From Mucilaginibacter oryzae (lineage in GTDB: Bacteria > Bacteroidota > Bacteroidia > Sphingobacteriales > Sphingobacteriaceae), in the NCBI RefSeq assembly GCF_003148845.1, contig NZ_QGHA01000010.1, positions 1 through 64,000 on the forward strand: a stretch of DNA of 64,000 bases. Reading direction: 5' to 3'. Shown here piece after piece: positions 11,122 to 56,031 of this stretch. Below the pieces are notes generated by a model. It did not search any database and was not told the origin of the DNA. It saw nothing but the letters and a program-made list of their open reading frames with translations. Within the stretch, counting starts at the first letter, position 1. Each line of letters begins with the position of its first letter. The translations under genes were made by a program, and so were the position numbers.

Positions 11122-12084
11122 TTGCTTAAACAAACTGTCAACAAACGCCTGCCTGTCAAACAACTGCAGGTGGTCCATCCCTTCGCCAACACCAATATAT
11201 TTTACCGGGATCTTGAACTGATCAGATATACCTATTACTACACCGCCTTTTGCCGTACCGTCAAGCTTGGTAAGCGCCAGGGCGTTTACGTTGGTAGCCT
11301 CGGTAAATTGCTTGCATTGCTCAATAGCGTTTTGCCCGGTTGATGCATCGAGCACCAGCAGTATCTCATGCGGAGCGCCGGGAATCACTTTCTGCATTAC
11401 GTTTTTGATCTTGGTAAGTTCGTTCATCAGGCCTACCTTGTTATGCAGGCGGCCTGCAGTATCTATAATTACTACATCATCCTCATTAGCCACAGCAGAA
11501 CGAAGGGTATCATAAGCTACAGAAGCCGGATCCGAGCCCATGGCCTGGGCTACTACTTTTACACCAACACGCTCGCCCCAAAGCTTAATCTGATCAACCG
11601 CGGCGGCGCGAAAAGTATCGGCAGCGCCTAATACTACCTTGTTACCGGCTTGTTTAAGTTTGTGGGCCAGTTTGCCAATGGTGGTGGTTTTGCCTACGCC
11701 GTTTACACCCACTACCATAATTACGTAGGGTTTATGGTCGCCGTATTCGAAATTGCGGAAGTCGTTGCTGTTGTTTTCGGCAAGCAGCTGCTGAATTTCG
11801 TCTTTTAGCAGCGTATTCAGTTCGTTGGTACTTACGTATTTATCGCGGGCAACGCGGGCCTGGATGCGGTCGATGATTTTGAGGGTAGTGGTTACCCCTA
11901 CATCTGATGTTACCAGGATCTCTTCCAGCTCATCAAGCACATCATCATCAACGGTTGATTTACCGGCGATGGCCTTGGTGATCTTCGAAAAAAAGTTATC
12001 CTTGGTTTTTTCCAAACCGGTATCAAGCGCCTGCTGTTCCTGCTGCGTATTTTCCTTTTTCTTAAAAAAATCAAATAATCCCAT
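11119..12084 (-). CDS. ftsY: Signal recognition particle receptor FtsY
   Basis: GTPase that docks SRP-ribosome complexes at the inner membrane. I start it at ATG 12084 (MGLFDFFKKKENTQQ), which matches Bacteroidota FtsY; a start three codons upstream lies in a repeat. About 321 residues with a short acidic A region, a helical N domain (residues 25-100) and the G domain: P-loop GVNGVGKTTTIGKLA, DTAGRLHNK and TKLDGTAKGGV. Located between DUF4295 and rimO, the usual Bacteroidota order. Family A repeats flank it at both start and stop codons, and its stop codon falls at the edge of the downstream copy. Confidence 0.96.
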   Translation of the reverse strand: MGLFDFFKKKENTQQEQQALDTGLEKTKDNFFSKITKAIAGKSTVDDDVLDELEEILVTSDVGVTTTLKIIDRIQARVARDKYVSTNELNTLLKDEIQQLLAENNSNDFRNFEYGDHKPYVIMVVGVNGVGKTTTIGKLAHKLKQAGNKVVLGAADTFRAAAVDQIKLWGERVGVKVVAQAMGSDPASVAYDTLRSAVANEDDVVIIDTAGRLHNKVGLMNELTKIKNVMQKVIPGAPHEILLVLDASTGQNAIEQCKQFTEATNVNALALTKLDGTAKGGVVIGISDQFKIPVKYIGVGEGMDHLQLFDRQAFVDSLFKQ

Positions 12085-12202
12085 AAGCCTCACCTAAATC
12101 CTCTCCAAAGGAGAGGACCTTGTTAAATAGTTTTTAAATCAGATTATTACACCAGCCTGCCTGCTTCTCCCTCTCCTTTGGAGAGGGCCGGGGTGAGGCC
12201 TA
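12085..12202. repeat. Family A palindromic repeat (variant) upstream of ftsY
   Basis: Two inverted arms: AAGCCTCACCTAAATCC with hairpin CCTCTCCAAAGGAGAGG at the left, and CTCTCCTTTGGAGAGG with GGGGTGAGGCCTAA at the right. The left end touches the ftsY start codon. A sequence variant of the elements at 11022 and 58862. Confidence 0.8.
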
Positions 12203-12204
12203 AC

Positions 12205-12238
12205 AAAAAAAGCCCTCTCGTTAAAAACAAGACGGCTT
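12205..12238 (-). terminator. Terminator after the DUF4295 gene
   Basis: On the minus strand AAGCCGTCT ... AGAGGGCTT with one mismatch is followed by seven T. It would reduce transcription from the L28/L33 genes into ftsY. Confidence 0.6.
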
Positions 12239-12260
12239 CAATATTTGAATCAAAGAGTGA

Positions 12261-12425
12261 TTATATAGTTTTACCAGCAATTGCATCCTTAACTAAATCG
12301 TTAGGGACAATTTGGGTTTTGAATGAATAAGCACCGGTTTTAGGTGATTTATTCATGGTGATCACTTTTGAATATTCTTTGCCTTTACCTGCTACTTTCA
12401 GGGTTGCAACTACTTTCTTTGCCAT
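12261..12425 (-). CDS. DUF4295 small basic protein
   Basis: A 54-residue protein, MAKKVVATLKVAGKGKEYSK then a C-terminus AIAGKTI. It is the small lysine-rich DUF4295 protein found in Bacteroidota directly after rpmB and rpmG. The position in a ribosomal operon and the composition suggest a ribosome-associated protein, but its function is unproven. Spacing to rpmG is about 105 bp, filled by an AT-rich repeat. Confidence 0.88.
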   Translation of the reverse strand: MAKKVVATLKVAGKGKEYSKVITMNKSPKTGAYSFKTQIVPNDLVKDAIAGKTI

Positions 12426-12427
12426 CT

Positions 12428-12500
12428 CTTAATTATTGAATTAGTGATTTACTGAATTAGTGATTTTATTTTGATTGTTGAATTAGCGAATCAATTACAA
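12428..12500. repeat. Family E AT-rich repeat (GAATTAGTGATT type)
   Basis: Repeated words ATTGAATTAGTGATTTA and GAATTAGCGAATCAATTA fill the spacer between rpmG and the DUF4295 gene. The same words recur around fusA and next to the DUF3098 gene. Confidence 0.65.
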
Positions 12501-12530
12501 ATCTAACTACCCAATCAAAGCTTCAACCAA

Positions 12531-12713
12531 TTATTTTATCTCTTTGTGAACAGTAACTTTACGTAAAACCGGGTTGAATTTTTTCAACTCTAATCTTTCG
12601 GTAGTGTTTTTCTTGTTCTTAGTGGTGATATAGCGAGACATGCCTGGCATACCGCTTGTTTTGTGTTCGGTGCACTCTAAAATCACCTGAACCCTGTTGC
12701 CTTTTTTTGCCAT
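12531..12713 (-). CDS. rpmG: 50S ribosomal protein L33
   Basis: 60 residues, [20 protein letters not shown]..., ending [16 protein letters not shown]. It matches Bacteroidota L33. Only one cysteine is present, so it is the zinc-free (C-minus) form. Second gene of the rpmB operon. Confidence 0.96.
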
Positions 12714-12793
12714 TTTGTTTTTATGTTGTACGTGTCACCTCACGGCTTACGTAATTTTCAATTTATTATACTGCTAAACCTGCAAGCCAACTA

Positions 12794-13027
12794 CTAAATG
12801 TAGCCTTTTTTAACAAATTTATTGATGCAGGCGGTAATACCGTTTTTGCTGATAGTTTTAACCGCCGAGGTAGATACTTTTAAAGTAATCCATTTATCCT
12901 CTTCAGGGATATAAAACTTTTTAAGTTTCAAGTTAGGATGAAACCTGCGTTTTGTTTTAACGTTTGAGTTTGAAACGTTGTTACCAACGATAGATCCTTT
13001 TCCTGTTAGATCACAAATTCTTGACAT
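12794..13027 (-). CDS. rpmB: 50S ribosomal protein L28
   Basis: 77 residues, [20 protein letters not shown] followed by [18 protein letters not shown], a standard L28. No CxxC zinc pair beyond C5. First gene of the rpmB-rpmG-DUF4295-ftsY-rimO unit, with a Bacteroidota-type promoter 45-75 bp upstream. Confidence 0.97.
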
Positions 13028-13071
13028 GACAAATATTTTTAATTATCAACCCTTTATCCAAAAAGAGTTTG

Positions 13072-13103
13072 CAAATATCAGACTTTTAAATCAAATATTC
13101 AAG
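13072..13103 (-). promoter_or_regulatory. Promoter of the rpmB operon
   Basis: On the minus strand, CTTGA, a 19-bp spacer and GATATTTG. This resembles the Bacteroidota -33/-7 consensus (TTTG ... TAnnTTTG) and the rpsL promoter in this window, which also has CTTGA at -33. Confidence 0.55.
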
Positions 13104-13162
13104 GGTGATTTAAAAATATTTGAAAAAAGATTTATGGAGTGGGCTGATAGTTATGTTATTAG

Positions 13163-13882
13163 TTAGTAATAGGTTATTTCGCGCGTTGTTGTACCCGAAT
13201 ACTTTCGTTCGGGCATTGGCTCAAAGGTGTTAGTAGCACTTATCCGTTTAAGCCAATTGCCTTTTGAATCACGTTGAGGATATGTATAAGTTGTCTTATT
13301 TAAGAGTAACTCTTCCTCATAAAAAGAGGATTCGATCAAATGGTTTTCATGATCGTATTTATATTTCCAAAAATTAGGAGCAGCGTGTACATTAAGAGCA
13401 TGCGTATTCCATTCTGTTAAATTTCCTGATTTATCATATTTAGCTAATGATTCGTACTGAAATATATCGTCCGATTTATCGGCACTGCCATACCTTGATA
13501 TATTGCCATTACTATCAAAGTCCCACTTAACCCCATAATTTCTCTCCCCGGAAAGCGTTTCGGTTAGCGCCGTCTTTTTCCCATCAGCATTATACGAAGA
13601 AACGTACCGGGTTTCCTGCCGTTCTGTTTTCTTTTCCTTTTTATTCTCATGCCCTTCAGTATAGCTCCAACTTGATTTTGAATAAATCATATCGCCCTGT
13701 TAATTAAAATCAACAACTAAAAAATAATCGCCTAATGTGCTTTTTTCAATCAAACGTTTTACGTTCCCGTTTAATTTTTCGGCATATCTGTCCGAGTACA
13801 GCATAATAGAAGCCGGTTTGGTTTTTTTATATGAGCAGGAAGTAATTAACAATAGTAGGATTAAAATTCGTCGCTTTAGCAT
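13163..13882 (-). pseudogene. Lipoprotein gene interrupted by an in-frame stop codon
   Basis: Two open segments in the same frame, 13882-13700 and 13690-13163, are separated by a single TAA at 13702-13700 and three sense codons. The first begins MLKRRILILLLLITSCSYKK with a lipobox cysteine at residue 16; the second continues QGDMIYSKSSW and contains YD-repeat-like units such as KWDFDSNGNISRYGS and KYDHENHLIESSFYEEE. Joined, they give one surface lipoprotein of about 239 residues with RHS/YD-like strands. A codon such as AAA or CAA mutated to TAA explains it. The intact reading frame downstream suggests a recent mutation. Function unknown. Confidence 0.75.
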
Positions 13883-14063
13883 AATTGCAAATAAGGTGGC
13901 TTAAATTAATAGTAAGTTATTTTACGGGTTTCTTCAACTTACGTCAATTACCAGGTTATACCATCTGTCCCGTTTATAAACATAACGCTTCGTCCAGTTT
14001 TTGTGTGCGTCAAAATTATGTTGATCTCGGGCCGGGTGGTTTATACAAAAAACCAAGTTCCTT

Positions 14064-14792
14064 TCACTTTCGATAATTCTTCAACAGGTTATAGTCGGTA
14101 AAATCCATAGCATCATCCGCGTTAATACTTCTCTTTAAAATGAGTTTTTCTTCGCCTTTTTTATCGTAGGCAAACACTTTTATGCTATCGCATTGGTCGG
14201 CCCTGGCAAAAGTTCTTAAACTATCAGCCTCAATGGTTGCGAAAATTGTGCTGTTACACCCGGAAAGCGCAAAAGCTTCTATACAATTTAACTCTTGATT
14301 ATAACTCAGGTTTGGAAACGTGTCGGAGTTTTTAATCAGTATCAGTTCATCATTTTTCTTATCGTAGATAAAAAGCGTACGGATCTCGTTGCCGCCACGT
14401 GCTGCTATTGCCGAAATAAAGGTAAAATCGTTCAGCACGTCGTTGTTAAAATCTGATACTGAGGGATCGGAACTGGTAATTCCATCCTTTGGGAGATGAA
14501 ATTCATTTTTAATTATCCATTTATCAGCATGCTTTGAAAAGAACCGGATAACAACGTAGGTGCTATCCTCAATTTTAAACTGCTCGAGACTTACCTTATT
14601 AAACCCTTTACGGCCTATATTTAAACTATCTGTAAATGATTCCGTAAGTCCGTGCTTATCTGGCATCGTTTTCGGTTTCGCTTTTATTTCTTTATGCAGA
14701 TGTTGTACAACAGGAGCAGGGCGTTTTTCCCCGCATGCGGCTAATAATAAAACCGATAATAGTATCAGGCAGGTGATAGGTTTGGGGCGCAT
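14064..14792 (-). CDS. Hypothetical lipoprotein
   Basis: 242 residues with a lipoprotein signal MRPKPITCLILLSVLLLAAC, cysteine at 20. The mature part contains DPSVSDFNNDVLNDFTFISA, which resembles the calcium-loop repeat of FG-GAP/VCBS proteins, so a partly beta-propeller-like fold is possible. I do not recognise a specific family. It lies next to another lipoprotein gene on the same strand (13163-13882), separated by about 180 bp without a clear gene. Codon use looks ordinary. Confidence 0.75.
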   Translation of the reverse strand: MRPKPITCLILLSVLLLAACGEKRPAPVVQHLHKEIKAKPKTMPDKHGLTESFTDSLNIGRKGFNKVSLEQFKIEDSTYVVIRFFSKHADKWIIKNEFHLPKDGITSSDPSVSDFNNDVLNDFTFISAIAARGGNEIRTLFIYDKKNDELILIKNSDTFPNLSYNQELNCIEAFALSGCNSTIFATIEADSLRTFARADQCDSIKVFAYDKKGEEKLILKRSINADDAMDFTDYNLLKNYRK

Positions 14793-23996: not shown

Positions 23997-24469
23997 ATGG
24001 AAATCGAATATTTAAAACATCTGAATAACCATCCTTCAGCAAGCGGATTAGGCGGTTTAAGGACGCTTAAACCCATATCTATGGATGAAATCATTTGCCT
24101 GGAAAGTATATATAATGGCGGAAATCCATTCCCTAAAGCTTTAAGAGAATTGTTATATACATAGCTGATAAAAGATGTTATGTATTAGCCTACTATAGTG
24201 ATAGCCAGGCAGAAATGCAGGAAATGGCACTGGAAGATCTGGCCGATTATGAACTAAGCATACCGCGGCCATTTTATGTAGTAGATGTTTATAATGCCCA
24301 CGATCAATTTTTATTTGTTTACTTAGACGAAGGGAAAGATAACCCTACTTTGTATGAAGCAGTATTTGAAGGAGATCCCAGAGGATGGGTTCATTCATTA
24401 GATTGCTCATTAGCTGGATTTATAGGTTCGCAGCTTTCAAGCTATCTGAGGAGCGAAAATCCATTTTAA
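23997..24469 (+). pseudogene. Frameshifted SMI1/KNR4 (SUKH)-like gene
   Basis: The first part (23997-24164) encodes MEIEYLKHLNNHPSASGLGG through NPFPKALRELLYT and ends at TAG. The other frame continues from about 24164 with ADKRCYVLAYYSDSQAEMQE to SYLRSENPF and stops at 24469. Removing 2 bp in TATACATA near 24156-24162 gives one 156-residue protein. The PIS-x-DEI-x-x-LE and pFPKALRELL pattern followed by RPFYVVDVYNAHDQFLFVYL fits SMI1/KNR4-like immunity proteins of polymorphic toxin systems. No toxin gene is nearby. Family assignment is moderately certain. Confidence 0.65.
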
Positions 24470-24692
24470 GAGGCAAAAAATTAATATGTTACTTTTACTC
24501 ACTATGGCAGCAAACATTTCCCTCCATTAATTTACAATAATGGAGAATTCTTTCTAATAATCATCTCAAAGCCTATTATCAAATATTCTCTGTCTGCTAT
24601 ATTAATCTATCTGCCAATTAATCCTTTTCCATTTCCATCAGTCATACATATGTACATCTTCAATACAGATGATGAGTTAAAGAATTTACGCC

Positions 24693-24872
24693 ATGAAAAG
24701 GAAATTTGTTGCTTTGGCACTATTAATATCAACAGTAATATCGATATCAGGCTGCGTAGTACGTGAAGACTATGGCTACCATCATAGATACCGTAACGGA
24801 TATAACAACGGATACAATAATGGGTATCACAATGGTTATGATAACGGCCATTACCACGACAGAGGTTATTAA
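24693..24872 (+). CDS. Small Tyr/Gly/Asn-rich lipoprotein
   Basis: 59 residues: MKRKFVALALLISTVISISG then Cys-21 as lipobox cysteine. The mature peptide is a run of NGY units (YNNGYNNGYHNGYDNGH) with histidines, so it is probably disordered and could bind metal. A terminator hairpin follows. The 220 bp upstream hold no other gene I recognise. Confidence 0.7.
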   Translation: MKRKFVALALLISTVISISGCVVREDYGYHHRYRNGYNNGYNNGYHNGYDNGHYHDRGY

Positions 24873-24912
24873 TTTAAGTTTTCCATAGTAGTTTTATTGA
24901 GTGAGTGATGAA

Positions 24913-24944
24913 AGAGGGCGCCAGGTTTTTACCGGCGCTCTTTT
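24913..24944 (+). terminator. Terminator after the small lipoprotein
   Basis: GAGGGCGCC / GGCGCTC stem with a T-rich loop, then TTTT. Confidence 0.7.
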
Positions 24945-25027
24945 ATATGTACCCACGCCTGCAATGCCGAATACTATTTCGTAACCGATTTAAATTCCAC
25001 TCTTCTGTAAAATATAAAATAACAAAA

Positions 25028-25053
25028 CAGAATTAAATCAAAATTTAATTCTG
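25028..25053. promoter_or_regulatory. Perfect 11-bp inverted repeat upstream of a promoter
   Basis: CAGAATTAAAT CAAA ATTTAATTCTG, six bases upstream of the -33 element at 25059. Could be an operator or a weak terminator. Confidence 0.45.
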
Positions 25054-25058
25054 TTTAT

Positions 25059-25091
25059 TTTGAAATATCAAAATATTTTTCTGTATATTTG
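25059..25091 (+). promoter_or_regulatory. Bacteroidota-type promoter
   Basis: TTTG (25059-25062), 21-bp spacer, TATATTTG (25084-25091). Textbook match; start codon of the next gene is 25 bp further. Confidence 0.8.
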
Positions 25092-25115
25092 AATCATACA
25101 AAATAAACCTATAAC

Positions 25116-25796
25116 ATGACCAGCATTAAAAATACGATTAACCGTGTATGCGGGCTTGCATTTACCTTATTAATTGCATCAACTATTATCACTGCCAAAG
25201 CTAAAAGCAGAACATTTCCATTGGCAATAATTGGAAACACCGAACTCAAGGCCTTTGAGGGAATTTATCAACAAACGGATAATGAGTATAAAGTATATAA
25301 ATTAATAGCCGATGGTGATAAATTGATTGCCCAACAGCTTGGTGGCGACCAAAAACTAACGCTGAACCGAAAATCAGACCTTGAATTTGAGTTTTTAGAT
25401 GATGATGGGGACGAAAAAATTCCGCTTTTATTTAAAAAGAATGCCTCCGGTGAGATCACCGAACTTGTTTTAGCGGGTAGACAAACGTGGACGAAATTGA
25501 AAAGCTATACACCACCTAAGGAGGTACAACTGAAACCCGAACAGATACAGGTTTTGGCAGGCAAATACCAATCGGAAGAGAGAACTAATCTTTTTCTTCA
25601 AATAAGCGCTACTGCCGATGGTTTAATGATTAAACAATCGTGGGATGGCAAAGAGATTAGTCTGAAGCCTTTGTCGGACGTTTTATTTTTAAATAAGGCC
25701 TTCGGCTTTCCTTTAAAATTCACTAAAGATATTAACGGAAATGCTGTTAAAGCGCTGGCTTTTAACCGCGACACGTGGAATAAAGTAAAAGAATGA
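25116..25796 (+). CDS. Secreted protein with two DUF3471-like domains
   Basis: 226 residues with an N-terminal signal peptide (LAFTLLIASTIITAKA). The mature part is two related modules of about 85 residues: FEGIYQQTDNEYKVYKLIAD ... LVLAGRQTWTKLKS, and LAGKYQSEERTNLFLQISAT ... ALAFNRDTWNKVKE. The repeated pattern of G-x-Y, a predicted beta hairpin and a closing RxTWxK resembles the DUF3471 domain attached to many beta-lactamase-like and peptidase proteins. Here the domain stands alone, without a catalytic partner. Function unknown. Confidence 0.75.
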   Translation: MTSIKNTINRVCGLAFTLLIASTIITAKAKSRTFPLAIIGNTELKAFEGIYQQTDNEYKVYKLIADGDKLIAQQLGGDQKLTLNRKSDLEFEFLDDDGDEKIPLLFKKNASGEITELVLAGRQTWTKLKSYTPPKEVQLKPEQIQVLAGKYQSEERTNLFLQISATADGLMIKQSWDGKEISLKPLSDVLFLNKAFGFPLKFTKDINGNAVKALAFNRDTWNKVKE

Positions 25797-25917
25797 GGTT
25801 CTAAATTAAATCATCGTTGTAAGATATACGGGCCGGCCCGCTGTTTCCTAAACCAGGTCACATCGGTAACCGGCCCTTTTTATTATGCATGCATATAGTA
25901 TAAACAGAAACGAAATT

Positions 25918-26000
25918 CGCAATAGGGATGGTAGCGGATACCGGCCCTGTGGCTAAGGCCCGTGCAGTATGAGCGTACAGCCCGGGCCGGAGGCATTGCC
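25918..26000. repeat. Family B dispersed repeat (inverted copy)
   Basis: In reverse complement: GGCAATGCCTCCGGCC, CGGGCTGTACGC, TTAGCCACAGGG and CGGTATCCGCTACC. Matches the copies at 14983 and 30559. Confidence 0.85.
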
Positions 26001-51297: not shown

Positions 51298-51457
51298 ATC
51301 CTGTTAAATCCGTCCGGCTCTTTTTGCCGGATTTTCACAAAGGTACAATTTCCGCGGTGATTTAACTCAGGCACAGTAAATGGTTAGGCGAATAGATCGG
51401 TCGTTATCAGGTTATAAAATTGAGGTCATCAAGCTATAGTTAGTCAAACGTAATGCA

Positions 51458-54175
51458 TCAGAACCTGTAATAGAATTTAGCCATAAGATATCCTGGCAGC
51501 AACTTATACTGTTGCATACTGTAACTTAAGGGAGATACGCTTTGAAAGCTCAATGAACGCTGATCGAATATATTTTTTGCTGAAAGATCAAATATGATCT
51601 TATCTTTCTTTAAAATGTATCGGGCACTCGCATCTGCAAAAAACAATCCTCTGTACCCCTCGGTACCGGGGAATATATAATGCTCTCCATCAATTTCAAA
51701 ATTCAATTTTTCGTTACACTTCAAATATAATTTGGCCCGGTTTTCAAAATAACGGTTAGTGTATGTAGCCTGCCTGGCTTCTGATCGTACCTCAAGTCTA
51801 TTAAATTTAACTATCGAACTTATTGATAGATTTAAGATGCCATCCCAGGCAGATTTATAGCCCAACTCGAGGGTAATATTGTTAATTACAGATCGTGTCA
51901 AAACATCCGATGTTTGATCAGATGTTTTGGTATGAATAAAATTAGCATCAATAAATATATTTCCGCTTAGTTTGTCCCAGTATTTTTCGATTCGCGATGA
52001 GGCAAAAACTAACCCGTTATTCAATTTAGCATATGGCACCTGTGTAACTATTTCATATAAACTATTGATGTTTAAATTACTTAGATAGTAAGACGCATTG
52101 GTACCGTAACTAATAGCTCCGTTATAAAGAAGCATGGCATTAACGTAATCAGCATAATTATAACTCAAAGTAAAATTATGATCGCTTATTTTTTTAAAAA
52201 CCGCAGTGCCTCCCTGAAGTGTGCGATAATCGGCAATCCAATATGAAGGTAAGAGATCTGAAATTTGCGGGAGCCTGTTAGCAAATCTGTATTGAAAAGC
52301 TACACCTCCCTTGTTTCCCGTTTTATAATTGAAAGTTGTACGGCTTTGAATATTGCTATAGGATGTATTAATAACGGAGTTGGCTGTAGTAGTGGTTGTA
52401 TCAATTTTTAAACTTTCGTAAGCAACTGTAGTGTTATTTGCAATGCTGATTCTGGTATTTAAAATATAGCTATATAAAAAATCAATATATTCCTTTCGGT
52501 TTTTTACATTGTAAGCTTTATTAAAGTTGGCTAAATTAAATGCATTAAAGTTTTGCAAGCTGTCAATACCGTATATAAAATCGGTAAAATGATTGCTGAT
52601 TTCACTATACCCTATATTTAGATGAAAATTATCAGCATTTCTTTTACCAAGCAATCTTAAAACACCATGATATTGCCTGGTTGGCATACCAGAGTTTTGA
52701 ATGGCACCGTTTGATGCACTTGATTTTACGTTGTTAAAGGTATCTAACGCAAAAGCCTGGCTTAGATACAGCCGCTGAGGGTTATTATTATAATAGTATA
52801 AAAACTCAGCATCTAATGCCAGGCTATTGTTTAGCCGCTTTGTAAATTGCAGCCGTTGATTTGTTAATTGTGTTAGCTTATTGAGGGTTTCTCTGATATT
52901 TATATCCTGCAAACTGATATTGGCGCCATAATTAACGGCATTCCGTTCGTACTTACCTTCATATACCAATTGAGCATTTTTATCTGGCTTATAAGTACTC
53001 TCTATATTGTAACTTTGGTAAAGGCGTTTTTTATTCAGGTTGTTGCTGGTAGCATATCTTACATTACCATTGCTTGTAATATTGATAACATCTGTTAAAA
53101 TAGCCTGCGTGTTGTTATCGCCAACAATATATAGCGATGGCTTGATTTGCCATTGGGCCCCCGGTTTAATTGCCATATTTAGCGAAGCGGCTCTTGCTTT
53201 GTTAAAATTATTACGCTGCAAGTCAATGCCAGGGTAATAATATTCTTTTACACTTGTTATATCCGGAAAAGTAGGGGGATAAAGCTGACTGCCCGAATTA
53301 CTTGAACGCTGATATTCCGGATGATCCTGCCCTATTATGGAGAATGGGTCCTCGCCTGTATTATTCATCGACCCAAGCAGTATAGCCTTAAACTTAGGTG
53401 AAATACCGAGCAGGTTTAACTTGCTGTCATATCTATTATCCGGAATGCCGCCACCTAAATTGATATTACCTTCTGTAACTATTCTGTTTCTGTTTTTTAA
53501 TTTCAGATTCAACACCTGCATATCGCCCGGTGTAATGCCCGCCAGCACGGAATTGTTATTAAACTTATCAATAACTTCGATTTTATTAATTACACCCGCC
53601 GAAAGGTTTTTGGTAAGCATTTTATAATTATCGTCAAAAAGATCTTCCCCTTCTACCATAACCTTATCAATTGGCCTGCTGTTAAATTTGATATTCCCGT
53701 TATCATCAACAGTCATGCCTGGCAGTTTTTTAATTATATCCTCAACAGTGGTTTCGTTATTATTACTATAAGCATCCAACAAAAACGAAGTTGTATCACC
53801 TTTTTGTACAACTTTTCTGTTAGCTCTTACACTTACTTCCTTTAAAGCTGTACTCGCAGCCTTTAAAACCACATTAAATTGTGCAGGCTGATTGTATTGT
53901 ATACTTATTGTTCGAGTATCAAACCCCAACGAATTAACCTCTATTGTAACTTCCGACCAGCTTTTATTGTAAGCAAAAGTAAAATCACCGTTATTATCCG
54001 GCAACTGATAGCTTGACTGGACTTTTCCCTCATTACTATATTTAATTATAATACTGCCAAAAGTAACCGGCTTTCCAAGGCTATCTGTTAAGTGCCCTTT
54101 AAACGTTTTAAATTGCGAAAATGCTTTACTACCAAAACATAAACTAAAAAACAAACATAAAGTTAGCAAGCGCAT
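51458..54175 (-). CDS. TonB-dependent-receptor-like outer membrane barrel protein
   Basis: About 905 residues from MRLLTLCLFFSLCFGSKAFS. Mature N-terminus is a CarboxypepD_reg-like domain (GHLTDSLGKPVTFGSIIIKY to about 105), then a plug (NNNETTVEDIIKKLPGMTVD, NLSAGVINKIEVIDKFNNNS) and a long barrel of the OMP_b-brl_3 type that ends LLPGYLMAKFYYRF. It is paired with the GLPGLI gene 34-43 bp upstream; this pair is common in Bacteroidota. Visibly more AT-rich than the neighbouring truB and uppP genes. Substrate unknown. Confidence 0.88.
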   Translation of the reverse strand: MRLLTLCLFFSLCFGSKAFSQFKTFKGHLTDSLGKPVTFGSIIIKYSNEGKVQSSYQLPDNNGDFTFAYNKSWSEVTIEVNSLGFDTRTISIQYNQPAQFNVVLKAASTALKEVSVRANRKVVQKGDTTSFLLDAYSNNNETTVEDIIKKLPGMTVDDNGNIKFNSRPIDKVMVEGEDLFDDNYKMLTKNLSAGVINKIEVIDKFNNNSVLAGITPGDMQVLNLKLKNRNRIVTEGNINLGGGIPDNRYDSKLNLLGISPKFKAILLGSMNNTGEDPFSIIGQDHPEYQRSSNSGSQLYPPTFPDITSVKEYYYPGIDLQRNNFNKARAASLNMAIKPGAQWQIKPSLYIVGDNNTQAILTDVINITSNGNVRYATSNNLNKKRLYQSYNIESTYKPDKNAQLVYEGKYERNAVNYGANISLQDINIRETLNKLTQLTNQRLQFTKRLNNSLALDAEFLYYYNNNPQRLYLSQAFALDTFNNVKSSASNGAIQNSGMPTRQYHGVLRLLGKRNADNFHLNIGYSEISNHFTDFIYGIDSLQNFNAFNLANFNKAYNVKNRKEYIDFLYSYILNTRISIANNTTVAYESLKIDTTTTTANSVINTSYSNIQSRTTFNYKTGNKGGVAFQYRFANRLPQISDLLPSYWIADYRTLQGGTAVFKKISDHNFTLSYNYADYVNAMLLYNGAISYGTNASYYLSNLNINSLYEIVTQVPYAKLNNGLVFASSRIEKYWDKLSGNIFIDANFIHTKTSDQTSDVLTRSVINNITLELGYKSAWDGILNLSISSIVKFNRLEVRSEARQATYTNRYFENRAKLYLKCNEKLNFEIDGEHYIFPGTEGYRGLFFADASARYILKKDKIIFDLSAKNIFDQRSLSFQSVSPLSYSMQQYKLLPGYLMAKFYYRF

Positions 54176-54217
54176 TGGCGGCAACAGATGTAGGTAAACC
54201 TATTAACAACTTTAATT

Positions 54218-55099
54218 TTAACGGGCGTCTTTAAATTCCATATTAACCAACTTTATAACCTGTATAAATTGCTTGGTGTTTTGTGTTTGCGAACTTGATG
54301 CTCTCAACATTTTTCCAATTTCATCGTTTCGTTTCTGTTGTGCGGCTATAAATTCTTTCTGCGTTACAACCTTACCTTCGGGTTGTGGTTTTTTAATTGT
54401 CACCTCATCAGCCGATGGTATATTTAATGCTGTTAGTTGTATAACAATTTCCTTAGTATCATCATAAGCCTCCAAAATTAATCCAGGCAAACCACTAAGT
54501 TTCCACGGGCCTGCAGGTACCGGGATTTTTTTAGCATACCATGCGGTATAGTTACGCCCTCTAAACTGTCCGATTGCTTTATTTACAGCAAAACCAGATA
54601 TCGTTTTTTCTTCGGGTTCCAATTTCCATTGAATAGAAGGTAGCGTATCATTCACTACCACGGCAATATTGTAAGCAGATTGCCTTACCGAATAAAATTC
54701 AGGACTATTGTAAACGTGATACGAAGTATTTAAAACTGCCGGAGAGTTTATTGGTACTGCCGCCGCATGCTTATAGGCATCCATTAAGTCTTCTTTTCCG
54801 GCAATGGCTTTTTTACTAAGTTCGGTTGTATCTTTTTTAAGCGAGATAAATTTGGGGTCCTTCATCTGCGCGGTTGGCAATGTTTCAATATTTAATGATG
54901 CCTGTTTGCCAAAGTATAAACTATGCATTTGGATATAGTATTTTTTTGCGGTGTCTTTATCTGATACGGGCACATATGCAACTTTAATTTGATAATCCAG
55001 GCGGCCAAGGGCTTTGTCATCGCTTTGAGCTCCGGCATGAACAGCGACTGATAGAAATAAAACGACTAAAGTGAACTTAACAAGATTTAAAAATTTCAT
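54218..55099 (-). CDS. GLPGLI family protein
   Basis: 293 residues, signal peptide ending VHAGAQ. The family motif is exact: WKLSGLPGLILEAYD. Before it, KAIGQFRGRNYTAWYAKKIP is the usual companion stretch. Secreted or periplasmic beta-rich protein of unknown function, nearly always near an outer-membrane barrel gene, as here (51458). Third gene from the small secreted protein on the same strand; AT-rich like its neighbours. Confidence 0.93.
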   Translation of the reverse strand: MKFLNLVKFTLVVLFLSVAVHAGAQSDDKALGRLDYQIKVAYVPVSDKDTAKKYYIQMHSLYFGKQASLNIETLPTAQMKDPKFISLKKDTTELSKKAIAGKEDLMDAYKHAAAVPINSPAVLNTSYHVYNSPEFYSVRQSAYNIAVVVNDTLPSIQWKLEPEEKTISGFAVNKAIGQFRGRNYTAWYAKKIPVPAGPWKLSGLPGLILEAYDDTKEIVIQLTALNIPSADEVTIKKPQPEGKVVTQKEFIAAQQKRNDEIGKMLRASSSQTQNTKQFIQVIKLVNMEFKDAR

Positions 55100-55158
55100 A
55101 GGGGAAAAATTTGAAAAAAAACAGGTACACGTTTGTTTTTAAACTTAGTGAATAAAAT

Positions 55159-55479
55159 TTATGGGCAAGGTATTTCAGTTACGGTTGTCTCATAAATAGG
55201 GAATGTGTTGGTCACGTTGCCATTAGCATCGGTAACAACACCTGTCCCTATTTGTACGGTGCTTACTTTGTAACACTTATCAACTTTAAATATCTTTTTT
55301 AAAGTTGTAGCGCTTCCATACTCAATAAACGAGGTGCTCTTACCAATTGCTGTTGGCAATAATACCTGTACGCCATTAATGGTTATTTTTGAATTTGATT
55401 TTAGTTTAGCAATGCTCTTTGCGTTTGCAAATGTGCTGATAAATAAACCGATAAGGAATAAGAAGATAATTTTTTTCAT
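55159..55479 (-). CDS. Small secreted protein with two C-terminal cysteines
   Basis: 106 residues: MKKIIFLFLIGLFISTFANA signal peptide, then a Thr/Val-rich beta-like mature part with C at DKCYKVSTV and at the very end TEIPCP, which could form one disulfide. I know no family for it. It precedes the GLPGLI and barrel genes by about 60 bp, so it is probably co-transcribed and might be a ligand, substrate or cofactor of that pair. Confidence 0.7.
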   Translation of the reverse strand: MKKIIFLFLIGLFISTFANAKSIAKLKSNSKITINGVQVLLPTAIGKSTSFIEYGSATTLKKIFKVDKCYKVSTVQIGTGVVTDANGNVTNTFPIYETTVTEIPCP

Positions 55480-55992
55480 AGCTGTAATTTTAAGGCTTTA
55501 ATTTATTTGTACCTGTTTTTTATAAATATATTTTTATTATTTATAAAAAACAATAAAAACAAAAAATATTTTTTACGCTTTTGTTTTTTAACCTAAAATT
55601 TAAAAATTAACCAAAATAAAATTTAAATAAATAAAAAAAAATAAAGAAGCCAAAATTTCCACAAACTACAACATTCTCAATAACTCACAAGCTCATAAAC
55701 CCCTTAAAACATAACCAAAATCATGAAAAATACTTTTTTTAATAATTTAACAAAACATCCGTTTAACCAAAACGCCATTAAACCCAAATTACGCAATAGA
55801 TATAAAGTCTGGCATCAATTAATTGACAATCAATGATTTTAGTTGCCTTTTTCTGCTGCTACGCGATAGAAACTAATTGAATATCAATCGTATATAATTT
55901 GATTGTTTTTTTATTGCGTAATTTAGGTTAAAAATTACCTTATAACAATGCAGGCAATTACTTGCCGCAAAATGAGTTTGTATTAGCACAAA
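55480..55992. other. AT-rich intergenic region
   Basis: No convincing gene in 513 bp of very AT-rich DNA. It contains the 149-bp inverted-repeat element at 55781-55929 and a doubtful 37-codon frame at 55723-55836. Confidence 0.6.
55781..55929. mobile_element. Possible MITE-like element with 18-bp inverted repeats
   Basis: Left end AACCCAAATTACGCAATA (55781-55798); right end TATTGCGTAATTTAGGTT (55912-55929), matching at 17 of 18 positions in inverse. The 113-bp interior shows no gene. No clear target duplication. Confidence 0.45.
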
Positions 55993-56031
55993 AAAAGGGC
56001 ACATATAGCATAACGCTATGTGTGCCCTTTT
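55993..56031. terminator. Terminator after uppP
   Basis: AAAAGGGCACATATAGC pairs with CGCTATGTGTGCCCTTTT; T-run on the minus strand. It separates uppP from the GLPGLI module. Confidence 0.88.

Follow-up and report, generated by a model that had tools for sequence, protein, structure and literature searches.

A peptide-GLPGLI-barrel module between uppP and truB of Mucilaginibacter oryzae: a candidate exchangeable secreted-peptide cassette in Bacteroidota

What are three AT-rich genes doing between uppP and truB in Mucilaginibacter oryzae? We analysed a stretch of 64,000 nt from this organism (contig NZ_QGHA01000010.1, positions 1-64,000; “the window” below), whose minus strand carries, in order, ftsX, DUF3098, uppP, the three genes, truB and ribF, as judged from open reading frames (ORFs) and Pfam and NCBIfam profiles; a sequence-only reading of this DNA had named the same order. 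The three genes encode a small 106-aa protein, a protein of the GLPGLI family and a large outer-membrane protein (OMP, or “barrel”), with gaps of just 59 and 33 nt between them. The sequence-only reading had taken them for a horizontally gained accessory cassette, possibly for import or export at the outer membrane, that splits a conserved operon. The answer we lean towards, tentatively and at somewhat less than even confidence, is that they form a self-contained, exchangeable cassette of a secreted peptide, its cognate GLPGLI protein and a transporter-like barrel, the product likely being a bacteriocin-like peptide of competition or recognition. The computed evidence comprises an architecture that recurs, a mostly even number of cysteines, co-variation, predicted folds, and the absence of the module from this site in the closest relatives. 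New here is the association of peptide, GLPGLI and barrel outside the window, for a subset of GLPGLI loci; our literature searches, which did not cover subscription journals or preprints, found neither a three-gene peptide system of this kind nor a published function for GLPGLI.

The architecture was traced through the barrel. A search of genome contigs with the OMP alone found no relative; an alignment of three OMPs did, and from the alignment search the best 80 of 118 loci were taken. A GLPGLI gene is present in 43 of these 80, the barrel stands without GLPGLI in the surrounding sequence in 36, and the barrel of L179 lies near a contig end. With six tandem genes and four near a locus start excluded, 50 of 60 GLPGLI genes were eligible: a small signal-peptide ORF precedes GLPGLI in 41 of the 50, and in 38 it has at least two cysteines. 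By comparison, an ORF with both signal peptide and cysteines was found before 1 of 35 barrels without GLPGLI and before 1 of 70 other large ORFs in the same loci (signal peptide regardless of cysteines, 9/70). The signal-peptide and cysteine rule was set after the first peptides had been inspected and then kept unchanged for the 50 regions, the controls and the later sets; three of the 38 (L190, L195 and L197) have their first ATG some codons ahead of the signal peptide, and the misses include two-cysteine ORFs with no detectable signal peptide (in L161, L164 and L182, and two in L194), which were not counted. The carriers include Flavobacterium, Nonlabens, Lutibacter, Maribacter, Aquimarina, Aequorivita, Subsaximicrobium, Bizionia, a Chryseobacterium gleum metagenome-assembled genome and Hydrotalea.

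The window shares its gene order with two further genomes: G256, where two small signal-peptide proteins with two cysteines stand directly before GLPGLI, and G079, of the window's own genus, where two peptides, GLPGLI and a barrel lie at another site. In G256 the GLPGLI gene lies in two reading frames (L104 5512-6356), either truly so or through an assembly error. On a tree of 39 chosen barrels, 4 changes suffice to explain the peptide label, where shuffles require 9.8 (0/500 as low), and the window barrel pairs with that of G256 (100/99). Elsewhere in the tree, the barrel of Pedobacter duraquae (Sphingobacteriaceae; L158/L105), beside which no cysteine peptide was detected, sits next to that of Subsaximicrobium (100/100), and was likely transferred.

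Other loci repeat the units. A Flavobacterium plasmid has, flanked by transposase genes, the barrel first, then three peptides, two GLPGLI genes and one more peptide. One Nonlabens locus (L178, 128-8655) has four GLPGLI genes, each preceded by a peptide, along with a truncated piece of a barrel; some units of this array have decayed. Two more genomes (L274 and L278) have arrays with helical-looking two-cysteine peptides; the six other arrays examined with them contain no convincing two-cysteine peptide. On a Flammeovirga plasmid GLPGLI is preceded by a 58-aa protein that has a signal peptide and several cysteines (L241 3799-3975) and is followed by a long protein, possibly a further case of the layout; no such peptide gene is annotated directly before GLPGLI on the Chryseobacterium and Riemerella plasmids that carry it. 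When ORFs of at least 120 aa were clustered, each accessory family was confined to at most 5 of 44 loci.

Within these loci the three genes diverge very unequally. Over 23 triplets (253 pairs, the near-duplicates L157/L159 kept) the mature peptides average 0.22 identity, the GLPGLI proteins 0.30 and the barrels 0.48, and in two Nonlabens pairs the barrels are 82-84% identical, the peptides 19-22% and the GLPGLI proteins 26-30%. At the DNA level, identity between L174 and L185 is 0.90 over the opening 60 nt of the peptide gene, 0.39-0.49 over the mature peptide and GLPGLI and 0.67-0.83 over the barrel; of nine locus pairs, five reach 0.82-0.90 in those 60 nt, and the mature part falls to 0.36-0.50 in all nine. 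The four peptides of the Flavobacterium plasmid agree at 90-100% over their first 21 residues and at 19-41% over the remainder. The pattern of a conserved leader and a variable mature part is thus seen on one plasmid and in five of nine locus pairs, the window having a single peptide.

What the peptide varies with is chiefly GLPGLI. Among 40 hand-picked pairs, duplicates and two cysteine-less ORFs excluded, the similarities of peptide and GLPGLI correlate with a Mantel r of 0.65 (p 0.0002; Spearman 0.29), and in a slightly different set of 23 triplets the partial r given the barrel is 0.77 (rank 0.34; p 0.0003), the large Pearson values resting on a few similar pairs. (The correlation sets dropped L159 and added L187; the triplets dropped L199, whose OMP is broken.) The co-variation expected of a cognate protein in peptide bacteriocin systems is therefore found across relatives, a comparison between loci and not a property of the window alone. 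A peptide made to fit the barrel from outside would be expected to change together with the barrel; because it co-varies much more with GLPGLI, we favour handling from the periplasmic side, which falls short of proof of export.

The window peptide itself has a signal peptide (by eye and by the crude rule) and a mature part in which two cysteines flank a strand-turn-strand-like stretch. Its ORF is unlikely to arise by chance (at least 106 codons in 11 of 2000 Markov sequences), with a first-position purine bias of 0.73 against 0.40 and 0.48, and its position and two-cysteine pattern resemble those of 41 other peptides aligned with it. Beyond residue 20, 31 of 40 peptides have two cysteines, eight have four and one has one; two cysteines were mostly required for inclusion, so that the telling point is the absence of three or five among the 40. 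The window peptide matched no Pfam or NCBIfam family at curated cut-offs, nothing in 99 other genomes of the genus and nothing in the plasmid search, and the peptide profile gave weak matches to PDB sequences at the signal-peptide end only. Of 398 other genomes in the family, 6 gave weak matches (L095-L100), which on inspection were rejected as chance or as signal peptides; one of the contigs concerned (L095, G107:C179), from a prokaryote genome, is possibly stray and has ORFs which we take to resemble the packaging ATPase, capsid protein and cysteine protease of a polinton-like virus. Scans of all 42 peptides against Pfam and NCBIfam, with cut-offs given for the first member only, returned scattered matches and no family in more than three members (best E 1.9e-5, one member, to an NCBIfam lipoprotein model), and no anchor or repeat was seen by eye.

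The middle protein is a clear GLPGLI member, with 146.3 bits to TIGR01200 (cut-off 50) and 38.7 to PF09697 (Porph_ging; cut-off 25), behind an N-terminal hydrophobic helix that we take as its signal peptide. Its AlphaFold2 model (alignment of 41 sequences, pLDDT 77.7) is a LolA/RseB-like half-barrel, or bowl. In VIA the best match is the bowl domain of PNGases (7zgn, Z 14.9, root-mean-square deviation (rmsd) 3.2, 170 residues), followed by an uncharacterised Thermus protein (11.4) and by VioE and ependymin-related proteins (10.6); LolA (2w7q_B) is matched at Z 10.0 with an rmsd of 3.6 over 140 residues, and RseB (3m4w) at Z 9.3. Foldseek also gives PNGases, and there is a weak sequence match to PNGF-II. 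The protein thus resembles the LolA and RseB-MucB carriers and the PNGase F-II bowl in its predicted fold but has no match to the LolA family in Pfam, NCBIfam or PDB sequences. Of 296 genomes sampled from the class, 115 contain a GLPGLI gene that scores above the curated cut-off, and the best match to the window GLPGLI in the genus covers residues 115-237 at 38% identity. A second GLPGLI gene of the same genome (L106; G000:C19, 2383-5985) follows a barrel gene instead of preceding it, with no peptide detected. In passages of two papers the GLPGLI family is listed among regulated genes (PMC9603813, PMC8757827).

The 908-aa OMP comprises, as read from the strands of its model (AlphaFold2, pLDDT 81.4), a carboxypeptidase-regulatory-like domain (about 25-107), a plug-like stretch (about 125-231) and a large beta-barrel (about 232-908). 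The N-terminal domain scores 27.9 bits to PF13715 (CarbopepD_reg_2), below the cut-off of 32.2, and matches a SusC homolog among PDB sequences; it presumably faces the periplasm, as in SusC-type transporters. After it comes the stretch LKEVSVRA, which may correspond to a TonB box. Foldseek returned 217 chains at E <= 0.001 (best 3.2e-16), of which the best 50 are all TonB-dependent transporters, with template-modelling scores by query of 0.32-0.38 and rmsd of 12.7-18.6; TonB-dependent transporters also make up all the VIA matches listed below the top one (Z 12.8-15.5). The earlier label of TonB receptor is therefore plausible by fold, while none of the Pfam plug and barrel profiles reached 0.001. 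Compared with SusC-type transporters, the OMP shares the overall fold and the N-terminal match but differs in these missing profile matches, in its top VIA match and in its neighbours, a GLPGLI protein and a peptide. Conservation in the barrel family is lowest in the N-terminal domain (0.41) and highest in the plug (0.72), with the barrel at 0.56. The best relative among 300 other genomes of the family, where three candidates per genome were scored and more relatives may exist, is 34% identical and belongs to G256, another genus.

How did the module come to lie here? Searching 100 genus genomes, M. oryzae included, for truB gave 94 hits, and 58 of the 93 others, mostly the best-scoring, were inspected. 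In 34 of the 58 uppP is less than 1 kb from truB, in two (L039 and L048) it is about 5.4-5.5 kb away with other cargo between, and in 22 it is not within the 2.6-10 kb of sequence around truB. All 16 genomes with the best truB matches have a short gap (77-502 bp by tblastn ends) without the module, so that synteny within the genus agrees with a gain. The cargo ORFs of L039 and L048, which we take to resemble sigma-factor, SDR, transporter and TetR genes, hint that the gap may be an insertion hotspot. Read beside the spacers of 13 close relatives (152-426 bp), the window regains homology near the truB promoter; hairpins after uppP differ between spacers. Because the sites of close relatives are short and homology resumes near that promoter, we conclude that about 4.6 kb was gained between two transcription units, with exact junctions that cannot be fixed because the spacers diverge.

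The idea of a split operon does not survive this comparison. A terminator-like hairpin with a T run follows uppP (our consensus scan did not list it), and truB has its own promoter element, TAnnTTTG, the Bacteroidota promoter consensus, also visible in the spacers of close relatives. Since uppP has its own hairpin and truB its own promoter, the two are separate units and no operon was split. Just past the promoter, the truB leader contains a short stem-loop (51314-51330) that by eye seems conserved in kind in the close relatives (spacers of L003-L009).

Composition had been offered as a sign of transfer. The module is indeed AT-rich (GC 36.0%; GC at third codon positions (GC3) 0.32-0.34, against GC 0.448 +- 0.034 and GC3 0.485 +- 0.059 in the 41 other non-overlapping window ORFs of at least 150 aa), and the OMP ORF has the lowest GC of 43 window ORFs. 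Two other parts of the window (12000-14500 and 24000-26000) are about as AT-rich. In related loci with enough flank, module GC lies below the flanks in 19 of 19 (mean -6.0 points, smallest -0.2), so low GC is usual for such modules, which weakens composition as evidence of transfer. The analysis turned up neither a donor nor, within the module, a mobility gene. Of the claim of a gained accessory cassette, then, the gain stands (absence in the 16 best truB matches, no close relatives, low GC), and the horizontal route is the one we think it took.

Between the peptide gene and uppP lies the inverted-repeat element that had been reported as part of the cassette. It exists, outside genes, and is statistically unusual: when the 513-bp region 55480-55992 was shuffled 300 times, only 2 shuffles matched the score of 15 that its best +1/-2 run attains. 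The best-scoring inverted repeat of that region is the hairpin before the peptide gene. A role as a multi-copy mobile element (miniature inverted-repeat transposable element) was rejected: the genome holds no further copy (a single match at E <= 0.001), the arm motif with at most one mismatch occurs at 21 sites against 28 for a reversed control, and no target duplication was seen by eye. A 20-mer in its loop occurs exactly in just two of the 100 genus genomes, this one and G080, where it lies in the uppP-truB spacer (uppP-truB distance 426 bp) in the same orientation to truB. Because it recurs there, the inverted repeat may belong to the site and not to the cassette, as an old part of it or a shared insertion point. 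An Rfam scan of the window gave no match at gathering scores. Coordinates are collected in Table 1.

Table 1. Positions in the window of the module and of the elements around it
Feature	Position	Strand	Basis
Approximate extent of the insertion, from the terminator-like hairpin after uppP to just before the truB promoter	51361..55990		Spacers of relatives
Outer-membrane protein (barrel), 908 aa	51458..54184	-	PF13715 below cut-off, predicted fold
GLPGLI family protein, 293 aa	54218..55099	-	TIGR01200, PF09697, AlphaFold2 fold
Small secreted peptide precursor, 106 aa	55159..55479	-	ORF, coding signal, position, two-cysteine pattern
Perfect 15-bp AT-rich hairpin with 9-nt loop, just before the start codon of the peptide gene	55514..55552		Score 15
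Imperfect inverted repeat, arms 55778-55809 and 55901-55932, 25/32 paired, inner 13 bp perfect	55778..55932		Repeat scan
20-mer in the inverted-repeat loop	55874..55893	-	Exact search, 100 genus genomes
Terminator-like hairpin with T run, 17-nt arms (94%), directly after uppP	55993..56031	-	Inverted-repeat scan, sequence
truB promoter element TAnnTTTG	51338..51345	-	Sequence; visible too in close relatives' spacers

How might such a cassette work? The signal peptide would take the precursor across the inner membrane, and a disulfide would probably close in the periplasm, where GLPGLI, with its LolA/RseB-like bowl, could bind the peptide as carrier or protector. The barrel would then handle it at the outer membrane, its variable N-terminal domain facing the periplasm. 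Peptide and GLPGLI would vary as a matched pair, with the barrel and often the signal peptide staying conserved, and the most likely use would be as a polymorphic, bacteriocin-like peptide, interbacterial competition seeming the likeliest setting. The earlier suggestion of import or export at the outer membrane thus remains plausible and is sharpened by the recurring architecture, with outward movement the direction we would presume. Class II microcins and bacteroidetocins are likewise small secreted peptides with a conserved leader, a variable mature part and a cognate partner gene; they differ from the present peptides, which have a Sec-type signal peptide (by eye) and beside which ORF clustering found no dedicated exporter family. 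Usual immunity proteins are also smaller than GLPGLI. That all these loci make up an undescribed class of polymorphic secreted peptides in Bacteroidota, with a conserved leader, a disulfide peptide, a cognate LolA-fold GLPGLI carrier or immunity protein and a barrel that releases the peptide to serve competition or kin recognition, spread by plasmids and by insertion between housekeeping genes, is a wider proposal that we consider rather doubtful.

Several observations weigh against our reading. No close relative of the window peptide was found, so that its membership rests on position, signal peptide and cysteine pattern. Leader DNA identity is just 0.38-0.62 in four of the nine locus pairs, one peptide of the Flavobacterium plasmid has three cysteines, the rank correlation of peptide and GLPGLI identities in the first triplet set is just 0.16, and a correlation of peptide with barrel is weak but present (Pearson 0.17, p 0.003; rank 0.11, p 0.085). 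In the barrel tree the window-G256 pair stands among mostly peptide-less barrels (fork 87/82), outside the large peptide-bearing clade and with long-branch warnings. Among 30 top-scoring TIGR01200 loci of the class, not chosen by barrel, the rule was passed in 2 of 33 eligible regions, so that the peptide marks only a subset of GLPGLI loci; of the best GLPGLI matches in the genus, 5 of 19 pass the crude rule, but three of these resemble, on visual inspection, fragments of ordinary genes, so that the window and G079 are left. Most GLPGLI genes of these two samples have no recognisable peptide, from which it follows that GLPGLI and barrel are useful without one. The modules of L104 and L236 are not AT-rich relative to their flanks. 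As for the proteins, the top VIA match of the OMP is the barrel of the Mtr complex (16.6), not a TonB-dependent transporter; a transporter fold of the TonB-dependent kind usually imports; and immunity proteins are, as far as we know, usually not LolA-like.

Some of these points would fit an uptake system, in which a ligand enters through the barrel and is bound in the periplasm by GLPGLI, the peptide serving as a partner, secreted or at the surface, that captures the ligand. Most fold matches of the barrel are importers, the fold matches of GLPGLI include LolA, VioE and EPDR1, bowls of a kind that binds hydrophobic ligands, and GLPGLI is commonly encoded beside a barrel without any peptide. 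We nevertheless think uptake unlikely: a peptide that matches the outer face of the barrel is hard to fit with the Nonlabens pairs, in which barrels 82-84% identical carry very different peptides, and the most variable part of the barrel is its N-terminal domain. The variable peptide could instead stay on the cell as a recognition, adhesion or phage-shielding element of the barrel, a proposal to which the hypervariable mature part, the often conserved leader and the conserved barrel lend themselves, as do the repeated and decayed units of the Nonlabens locus. With no anchor or repeat seen by eye in the peptides, and with co-variation that lies so much more with GLPGLI than with the barrel, such surface display seems distinctly improbable.

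The small gene might also be incidental to an ordinary accessory pair of GLPGLI and barrel. The missing sequence relatives of the window peptide, the many peptide-less GLPGLI genes sampled in the genus and the place of the window barrel outside the peptide-bearing clade would all agree with this; against them stand the excess over both control sets in related loci, the coding signal of the 106-aa ORF and the recurrence of the layout in G079 and in G256, whose barrel is the closest relative of the window's, and we strongly doubt that the gene is incidental. Nor do we give much credit to an ancestral locus lost in relatives, its AT-richness a result of selection and not of transfer. Low GC may well be a property of such modules, as the 19 loci with poorer GC than their flanks suggest, but a short spacer in every one of the 16 genomes with the best truB matches and a closest OMP relative so distant, in another genus, make loss a very poor explanation. 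A gained peptide-GLPGLI-barrel cassette remains the reading we prefer.

If this reading is right, the link to a hypervariable peptide, together with the predicted LolA-like bowl, would take GLPGLI, until now only a family name, to a model of function that can be tested for a subset of the family. And should the barrel carry the peptide outwards, a fold of transporters known chiefly as importers would gain a role in export.

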